A DNA stretch of 63,551 nt from NCBI GenBank assembly GCA_016873215.1, contig VGXU01000008.1:1-63551 (forward strand). Direction: 5' to 3'. Positions 41,382 through 43,410 of the stretch are shown here, piece after piece. Source of the stretch: Planctomycetota bacterium (lineage in GTDB: Bacteria > Planctomycetota > Phycisphaerae > Sedimentisphaerales > Anaerohalosphaeraceae). How positions within the stretch are numbered: the first letter of the stretch is position 1; the number at the start of each line of letters is the position of its first letter. The notes beneath the pieces are model-generated. The model saw only the letters and a list, made by a program, of their open reading frames with translations. It ran no database searches and was not told the DNA's origin. The position numbers were made by a program, and so were the translations under genes.

Positions 41382-42179
41382 ATGGCCGTTATAGAAGTTG
41401 AACATCTTCGTTTTGGTTATACACAGACTTCAATCCTGACGGATTTGTCCTTTTCCGTCAACGAGGGGGCTTTCTGCGCAATTGCAGGTCCCAATGGGGC
41501 GGGGAAAACCACGCTGGTTCGGCTTCTGGCGGGATTGTTGAAACCTGCCGGAGGGACTATCCGGCTCAACGGAGAAAAATTGAGTTCTTATGCCCCAAAA
41601 TCACTTGCCCGGCAGATTGCCGTTGTATGCCAGGAATATGTGCCGGTGTTTGATTTCACAGTATTGGAAATGGTAATGATGGTTCGTCTGAACCGGCGCG
41701 ATTTTGTGTTGTTTGAAGATGAGAGCGACAGGCATATTGTCGCAGAGGCTCTCGAACAGACTGAAATCGTTCATCTGGCGGGACGAAAACTGAATGAACT
41801 CAGCGGAGGGGAGCGTCAACGGGTTTTCATCGCGCGGGCCCTGGCCCAGAAGACGCCGATTTTGCTGTTGGATGAGCCGACGAATCATCTGGATATGAAA
41901 CACCAAATTCGGATATTTGATTTGCTCAAAAAACTTCAAACCGAACAGCAAAAAACCATCCTTGCGGTGACTCACGACATCAACATGGCCTGCCAGTATT
42001 GCGACCATGCGATGCTTCTGGCCGGCGGTGAAATGGCCTGGGGAAATCCGTCCGAAGTATTCGCCGTTGAAAGACTCAAATGTGTTTTTGAGGTTGATGG
42101 ATTTCAGGGCAGCTTCCGAAGTAAACCCTTTTTTATTCCTCTGAGCGGGCGGAAAAAAGATACGGCCGGACGGGAATAA
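41382..42179 (+). CDS. ABC importer ATPase (BtuD/FecE family)
   Basis: Energises the BtuC-like permease. The 265 residues carry Walker A GPNGAGKTTLVRLL (residue ~35), the Q-loop VCQEYVPVF, the signature LSGGERQRVFIARAL, Walker B ILLLDEPTNHLD and the switch histidine VTHDINMA. It follows the permease gene without a gap, completing a three-gene importer (binding protein, permease, ATPase). This is the last gene of the run; a promoter for the next gene follows. Confidence 0.92.
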   Translation: MAVIEVEHLRFGYTQTSILTDLSFSVNEGAFCAIAGPNGAGKTTLVRLLAGLLKPAGGTIRLNGEKLSSYAPKSLARQIAVVCQEYVPVFDFTVLEMVMMVRLNRRDFVLFEDESDRHIVAEALEQTEIVHLAGRKLNELSGGERQRVFIARALAQKTPILLLDEPTNHLDMKHQIRIFDLLKKLQTEQQKTILAVTHDINMACQYCDHAMLLAGGEMAWGNPSEVFAVERLKCVFEVDGFQGSFRSKPFFIPLSGRKKDTAGRE

Positions 42180-42229: not shown

Positions 42230-42257
42230 TTGATAATTTTTCATAAGAAATTATACT
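42230..42257 (+). promoter_or_regulatory. Promoter for the DksA-like gene
   Basis: TTGATA (-35), a 16-nt spacer and TATACT (-10), about 91 bp before the GTG start. The spacing and -10 match those found before pyrK and thrS. Confidence 0.6.
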
Positions 42258-42348: not shown

Positions 42349-43173
42349 GTGGCAAAGAAGGCAAAAAAAACAGCGAAGAAATCAGCCTTGAAGATAACCG
42401 CAAAGACCACTGCAAATAAGAAACCTGCAGCAGTGAAAACCCCAGTGTCTTTGTCAGCAAAGAACACCAAAAAAGGCGGTGCGGCTGCTCCTAAAAGCAG
42501 TGCTGTGGGGAAAAACGCCGCTATCCGCGCCGGCTTGACAGCCTCTTCTTCTTCCGAAACAAAACCCAAAGCGGTACAAGTATTGACCAAGACGTATTTA
42601 ACGGATGCGGAACTGGAACATTTCAAGCAGGTTCTTCTGGAAAAATTGCACCAGCTCGCCGGCGATGTGGATTCGATTGAAAGTGAAGCGTTGCGGAAAA
42701 ACCGCGCGGACGCCACAGGCGACCTTTCGTCGATGCCGATTCACATGGCGGATATCGGTTCCGATACGTTCGAGCAGGATTTTACGCTGGGACTTATGAG
42801 CAGCGAGCGTAAAATCGTCGCCGAGATTATCGCGGCGCTGAAGCGCATTCAAAACGGCACTTACGGCGTCTGTGAAGGAACGGGAAGACCCATTCCCAAG
42901 GCCCGGCTGGAGGCCAATCCATGGGCGCGATATTGTGTGGAATACGCCACCCGGCTGGAAAAAGGGCAGTTGACCAAACAGGAAGAGTCCCGCCGATGGG
43001 CGCATCGACACGAAGCTGAGAGCGACGAATCAGAGGATGAGGTCGAGACAGAAGAAGAGGATGAGGAAGAAGATGAAAACGAATTTGAGCCGATAGAGAC
43101 GGACCCTGATCTCGACGACCTGTATGAAATAGAAGAGGATGATAGCGAACCGTCGTCGGATGAGAAAGACTAA
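42349..43173 (+). CDS. DksA/TraR-like protein with basic N-tail and acidic C-tail
   Basis: A 274-residue protein in three parts. Residues 1-65 are Lys/Ala-rich and histone-like. Residues about 80-205 are DksA/TraR-like: a coiled coil (ELEHFKQVLLEKLHQLAGDV...) and finger region (NGTYGVCEGTGRPIPKARLEANPWARYCVEYA). Residues 215-274 are almost wholly acidic. In classical DksA the finger has four cysteines; here each half keeps one Cys, so zinc binding is doubtful. DksA binds the RNA-polymerase secondary channel and works with ppGpp. The start is GTG, with AAAGGT upstream and no in-frame ATG. Confidence 0.85.
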   Translation: MAKKAKKTAKKSALKITAKTTANKKPAAVKTPVSLSAKNTKKGGAAAPKSSAVGKNAAIRAGLTASSSSETKPKAVQVLTKTYLTDAELEHFKQVLLEKLHQLAGDVDSIESEALRKNRADATGDLSSMPIHMADIGSDTFEQDFTLGLMSSERKIVAEIIAALKRIQNGTYGVCEGTGRPIPKARLEANPWARYCVEYATRLEKGQLTKQEESRRWAHRHEAESDESEDEVETEEEDEEEDENEFEPIETDPDLDDLYEIEEDDSEPSSDEKD

Positions 43174-43218: not shown

Positions 43219-43410
43219 ATGAAATGTCCTGTCTGTAAATCCCAGGTGGCGAGCACAAGCCAAAACGAAGCTTATTTTCCCTTCTGCAGTCGGCGATGTT
43301 GTCTGATTGATTTGGGCAAATGGCTGGATGGAGAGTATCGTATTCCTGTCAGTCCGGAACAGCCGGAGGACGAGGATTCACAGCCGGCACAGGAAAAAGA
43401 CAACGATTAA
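43219..43410 (+). CDS. yacG: YacG-type zinc protein (DNA gyrase inhibitor family)
   Basis: A 63-residue zinc-finger protein: KCPVCKSQ at residues 2-9, then FCSRRCCLIDLGKWLDGEYRIP, the YacG pattern, and an acidic tail. E. coli YacG binds GyrB and blocks gyrase; the role here is inferred. The ATG at 43219 starts the conserved region; another 24 bp upstream adds eight unrelated residues. It lies 45 bp after the DksA-like gene. Confidence 0.86.
   Translation: MKCPVCKSQVASTSQNEAYFPFCSRRCCLIDLGKWLDGEYRIPVSPEQPEDEDSQPAQEKDND

Follow-up and report, generated by a model that had tools for sequence, protein, structure and literature searches.

DksA has mostly been studied as a partner of ppGpp. In the Escherichia coli protein the contacts with that alarmone are reported to be K98, R91, K139, L95, and R129, and the K98A and R129A variants to retain the binding to RNA polymerase (RNAP) with loss of Site 2 (PMC7676912). 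A DxxDxA motif is described at the coiled-coil tip of DksA, and certain homologues devoid of the C4 finger are stated to work like DksA (PMC9239242); among the forms with fewer cysteines, the Pseudomonas aeruginosa DksA2 has two, is reported not to coordinate zinc, and is made during zinc starvation alongside a four-Cys DksA1 (PMC9213440), while the cysteines of the Salmonella DksA are reported to become oxidized (PMC8262869). Within the PVC bacteria, the absence of Rel was reported in 2011 in a study whose table counts one planctomycete taxon (PMC3153485), and Chlamydia is described as keeping DksA without the genes for ppGpp synthesis, the C. trachomatis protein failing to complement an E. 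coli growth defect (PMC10995303). In the delta subunit of the Bacillus RNAP, for its part, a Lys tract is reported to contact the acidic rest of a disordered region, the breaking of which contact affects transcription (PMC9136928).

The window, by which we mean the whole 63,551-nucleotide stretch of planctomycete DNA analyzed here, contains a gene whose product belongs to the DksA/TraR family. We give slightly better than even credence to the reading that this product is a planctomycete secondary-channel factor of the DksA family, independent of both zinc and ppGpp, whose charged disordered tails would tune its action electrostatically. The features on which that reading is built are the following:

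42230..42257, + strand: candidate sigma70-like site TTGATA-16-TATACT, a consensus match only, with similar hexamers aligning in two same-genus loci
42349..43173, + strand: DksA/TraR-family gene, 274 aa, GTG start
42349..42588, + strand: Lys/Ala-rich N-terminal tail, residues 1–80 (18 K, 18 A, net +18)
42589..42984, + strand: DksA-like core, residues 81–212, with a two-helix coiled coil, the tip SSMPIHMADIGSDTFEQ, the finger region, and a last helix
42871..42945, + strand: finger region reading C175-x2-T178-x17-C196-x2-Y199 where a zinc DksA has four Cys
42985..43170, + strand: acidic C-terminal tail, residues 213–274 (22 E, 12 D, net −30)
43219..43410, + strand: YacG-family gene directly downstream (PF03884, 2.6e-19)

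Profile matches and the predicted structure assign the core to the DksA/TraR family. The Pfam profile PF01258 (DksA/TraR zinc finger) matched residues 170–198 at 3.2e-11, with 43.5 bits versus a cut-off of 24.9, which score places the protein in the superfamily; the DksA_N match was sub-threshold. All the NCBIfam matches fell under their cut-offs: the best of these, to TIGR02890 (yteA; residues 88–238, 2.4e-27), reached 96 bits versus the 134.4 required, so that the protein is not a YteA member by that model, and the models of the canonical zinc DksA, TIGR02420 and NF033459, gave 56 and 60 bits versus cut-offs of 115.5 and 105. The closest PDB chains by sequence were 6ptg (C. trachomatis DksA, 2.4e-16), 4ijj (P. 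aeruginosa DksA2, 3.3e-10), and 1tjl (E. coli DksA, 1.7e-8). The AlphaFold2 model, built on an alignment of 80 rows, predicts a DksA-like arrangement of two helices (residues 86–123 and 138–169) and a small globular end, with pLDDT values mostly of 84–98 in the core and of 59–60 at the coiled-coil tip. The top fold match was again 4ijj, with a Foldseek E of 2.8e-7 and, in VIA, a Z of 12.3 and an rmsd of 2.8 for 117 aligned residues; the VIA Z values versus 1tjl and 7khi were 12.1 and 11.4. For helical bundles VIA itself notes caution at Z under about 13—the five DksA entries scored 10.8–12.3 and unrelated rows at most 10.0—and, since our best value lies below that level, the assignment of the fold leans on Foldseek and on the sequence.

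The tip is constant across the homologue set, which set comprised 152 loci yielding 152 ORF matches, 135 of them distinct: residues S127, P130, H132, A134, D135, and D139 are invariant in all 135, as is the pattern HxADxG[ST]D. The DxxDxA of the canonical zinc DksA is not found there; instead, HMADIG faces the DEADLA of 4ijj, which would keep D74 as D135, in an alignment from the PDB search that places the tip differently than does the MAFFT alignment against E. coli DksA.

The bounds of the ORF are exact, from the GTG at 42349 to the stop at 43173; an AAAGG precedes the start, and a stop in the same frame lies two codons 5′ of it. GTG was found at a VAKK-like box in 30 of the 31 rows from the same GTDB family—the remaining row, L117, being a wrong pattern match—in a tally that takes in two same-genus loci, L004 and L005, whose likelier start is an ATG two codons downstream of the GTG. 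Over all the main-type rows with such a box the starts were GTG in 47, TTG in 10, and ATG in 8, whereas the paralogues with the box all had ATG (12 of 12); the preference for GTG could mark a translational control. The gene may also have its own promoter, to judge by the consensus match listed above, in a scanned region where three promoter-like sites were seen versus 1.2 expected. With some rows lacking enough flank for the neighbor tallies, the YacG-family gene adjoins in 58 of the 106 main-type rows, or about half, in none of the 16 four-Cys rows, and in none of the 13 paralogues, while the ABC-transporter ATPase gene directly upstream (window 41382–42179) occupies that same position in 54 of the 106 main-type rows.

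A second DksA-like gene is present in the genome (G000:C52; L002, 1231–1806), whose product has the finger C-L-S-Y, an acidic C tail, and hardly any basic tail. Thirteen such paralogues are separated from the remaining rows by a branch with a support of 99, and in every one of these the C tail has a net charge of −18 or stronger; the motif RPIDI[DE]R stands at the start of that tail in 7 of the 13, as counted by eye. The genome also gave one GreA-type match.

With respect to ppGpp, the alignment pairs the E. coli residues R91, K98, R129, K139, and L95 with S152, E159, N190, A200, and I156, and the basic Site-2 residues of a ppGpp-responsive DksA are thus missing. Among the 135 homologues K or R occupies the R91, K98, R129, and K139 columns in 1, 6, 40, and 0 instances, the R91 column lying beside an alignment gap; a second alignment, to 1tjl, is gapless around K98 and again pairs that residue with E159. 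Neither PF04607 (RelA/SpoT synthetase) nor PF13328 (HD_4 hydrolase) had a match in the 99.86%-complete genome, in searches that were positive in 11 and 10, respectively, of 14 control genomes. This genome hence seems unable to make ppGpp, and the protein probably tunes transcription otherwise. The pattern extends to the phylum, where PF04607 occurs in only 16 of 294 sampled genomes (11 of 198 in the class) versus a DksA profile in 263 of the 294. Since two genomes of the same GTDB family, G009 and G015, do hold a RelA/SpoT-type synthetase domain, ppGpp stays possible in the wider family.

The tails, between which the core has a net charge of −4, are the most extreme charged ends of the window: among 53 ORFs—a crude set of non-overlapping frames of at least 100 aa taken longest first and not a gene prediction—the 60-residue ends of this one ranked first on both sides, with +17 at the N terminus (next ORF, +12) and −29 at the C terminus (next, −6). 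The AlphaFold2 model leaves the N tail without secondary structure (pLDDT of 47–64 per block of ten) and predicts for the C tail, at a pLDDT of 55–74, a helix at its start that runs to residue 225. Between L004 and L005 the dN/dS was 0.21 for the N tail, 0.03 for the core, and 0.18 for the C tail, which values show both tails to be translated and under purifying selection. In the main orthologues of the same GTDB family, which tally covers 32 of 35 genomes (G020 had no match, and neither G028 nor G032 had a full main-type copy), the N tail had a net charge of at least +10 in 32/32, and the C tail one of −10 or stronger, and hence both tails were present, in 28/32. The original prediction had singled out a basic and an acidic tail, with the reservation that close relatives might lack them; the charges and their conservation bear out the tails and remove the reservation. 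Because the tails recur in relatives and evolve under purifying selection, we likewise rejected the possibility that they arise from a frameshift or a misassigned start.

Beyond the family the tails come and go. At the same limits the N tail qualified in 12, the C tail in 3, and both in 2 of 23 orthologues from other families of the order, counted at one copy per genome in 23 of 24 genomes (the fragment of G052 was omitted and L130, L132, and L151 were set aside). Among the 100 rows that remained after removal of 13 paralogues, of 19 sequences carrying Cys at the fourth position, and of 3 contig-end rows, 29 had both tails, 26 the Lys-rich tail only, 2 the acidic tail only, and 43 neither, at a limit of at least 15 charged residues; for the dual label, the best tree requires 11 changes, of which the starred branches force 5. 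Because so many orthologues outside the family are short-tailed, the core probably works without tails. The Spearman correlation between the two tails over those 100 rows was 0.15 (p 0.15) and the starred branches offered only 5 independent pairs, for which reasons we do not claim a coevolution of the two.

On the reading that we prefer, the coiled coil of the core would insert into the secondary channel of RNAP, placing the HxADxG[ST]D of its tip close to the active site, while the finger region would hold a DksA2-like fold without zinc. Activity would be set not by ppGpp—because the Site-2 residues are missing and the genome shows no RelA/SpoT domains—but by the amount of the protein and by the two flexible, oppositely charged tails, which may bind to one another, to DNA, or to surfaces of RNAP, and thereby change the lifetime of promoter complexes, in much the way of the Lys tract and the acidic stretch of the Bacillus delta; by analogy with that subunit, the two tails could contact each other just as well as DNA, the nucleoid, or a basic partner.

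Possible, if doubtful, is the alternative that the basic tail tethers the protein to the nucleoid as a histone-like anchor on DNA, contacts of that kind having been suggested in the original prediction, and that the acidic tail binds a separate basic protein, for instance HU or a ribosomal protein: an 80-residue Lys/Ala tail with 18 K, positive in every family orthologue, in a genome with two HU-family matches as possible basic partners fits that proposal, but the N-tail sequence is poorly kept within the genus, with a pN/pS between the window protein and L004 of 0.57 versus 0.19 for the core, so that it is mainly the charge that is conserved, a property compatible with many roles. We consider unlikely an account in which the tails, as almost neutral disordered extensions, serve solubility or stability without a specific partner while the core alone does the work; for, although their lengths vary widely with insertions and deletions, and in the other families of the order the N tail stays below +10 in 11/23 and the C tail is weaker than −10 in 20/23, the purifying selection on both tails, the opposite charges kept in 28 of the 32 family orthologues, and the block TDPDL[DE]DLYEIE conserved within the genus in the acidic tail speak against neutrality. 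(Beyond the genus, no common short motif was seen by eye in the acidic tails of the homologues.) Decidedly unlikely, in our judgment, is a third proposal, in which a polyampholyte switch of basic and acidic disordered tails replaces the alarmone input at the RNAP–DksA interface, in a lineage largely without ppGpp and beside a paralogue with the acidic half only; in such a switch the tails would respond to DNA or to the nucleic-acid or ionic state so as to set the strength of the action on RNAP.

As to the zinc independence contained in our preferred reading, the E. coli zinc positions C114, C117, C135, and C138 align with C175, T178, C196, and Y199, which residues (C-T-C-Y) do not make up the CxxC-x17-CxxC finger of the canonical zinc DksA but do correspond, on a DksA fold, to the reduced set of cysteines of a zinc-independent DksA2-like protein. 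As read from the alignment, the 135 homologues comprise 82 with one Cys per half, 34 with the first only, 3 with three, and 16 with four. A quick tree of 134 rows (L092 was omitted from that tree and from alignment A1) separates, by a branch with a support of 100 (starred), the 16 four-Cys rows—labelled as Pirellulales, Pirellulaceae, Thermoguttaceae, Planctomycetaceae, Planctomycetales, one Kuenenia, or the phylum only—from the other 118, in each of which one or more of the four Cys are missing. The reduced finger thus characterizes the entire remainder of that tree and is, with one Cys per half in 82 of the 135 versus four in 16, the usual state in this planctomycete group; a decay of the finger in this single gene was rejected on the same distribution. 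That the remaining cysteines are a redox switch or a metal site with other ligands, the finger being altered and not lost, we hold to be very improbable, since, though C175 is present in 135/135, even where the other three are lost, and the Salmonella cysteines are reported to be oxidized (PMC8262869), the second retained Cys is missing in 34/135, including 4 of the 32 family members (three Ser, one Thr), so that the Cys pair is not required, and the DksA2 with two Cys is reported not to coordinate zinc (PMC9213440).

The original prediction had proposed a DksA homologue with one Cys per half, which finger it called half-lost, and had named normal zinc binding as what would overturn it. PF01258 above its cut-off and the DksA-like fold by Foldseek and VIA agree with the former, the one-per-half pattern is what the four zinc positions display, and the residues at those positions exclude a normal four-Cys mode of zinc binding. 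The loss of the ppGpp-site residues and the missing RelA/SpoT domains were not part of that prediction. The family, the changed finger, and the conserved tails accordingly stand, whereas the loss of the finger as a peculiarity of this gene does not, for that state is the commonest one and is known from the zinc-free DksA2 (4ijj). The zinc part is, on its own, ordinary.

The wider significance lies elsewhere: the homologues mostly lack the ppGpp contacts, and one family carries strongly charged tails, so that the role of a DksA without ppGpp and the question of whether disordered charge can become a control input are both now testable. Neither the loss of the Site-2 residues nor the charged tails of planctomycete DksA was found in narrow searches of the open-licence literature.

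Among the known systems, the YteA family (TIGR02890) provides the best NCBIfam match, though with a score under the family cut-off. The Bacillus delta resembles our protein in having a folded part and a disordered region with a Lys tract and an acidic stretch (PMC9136928), but carries both charge blocks in one tail. The analogy is accordingly one in working and not one of membership, and we know of no relation of delta to DksA. The E. coli DksA (1tjl, 7khi) shares the two-helix core and the globular end, but has four zinc Cys, the DxxDxA tip, and the basic Site-2 residues, none of which is matched here. The P. aeruginosa DksA2 (4ijj) has the DksA fold and one Cys per half, C-T-C-A versus our C-T-C-Y, in a 136-residue chain without long charged tails; that bacterium, moreover, has the four-Cys DksA1 besides, whereas neither of the two DksA-like copies found in the present genome has four Cys. 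The C. trachomatis DksA (6ptg) is the best PDB match by sequence, with a similar tip (HQADQGTDTF) and the first Cys kept, and its source, a PVC bacterium, is described as lacking ppGpp synthesis (PMC10995303); it differs in being a 132-residue chain without charged tails and in having that first Cys only (C-S-T-S). Given the report of PVC bacteria without Rel (PMC3153485) and that on Chlamydia (PMC10995303), a ppGpp-free DksA is, in outline, already known for PVC bacteria, and the present locus adds the loss of the Site-2 residues and the two charged tails.
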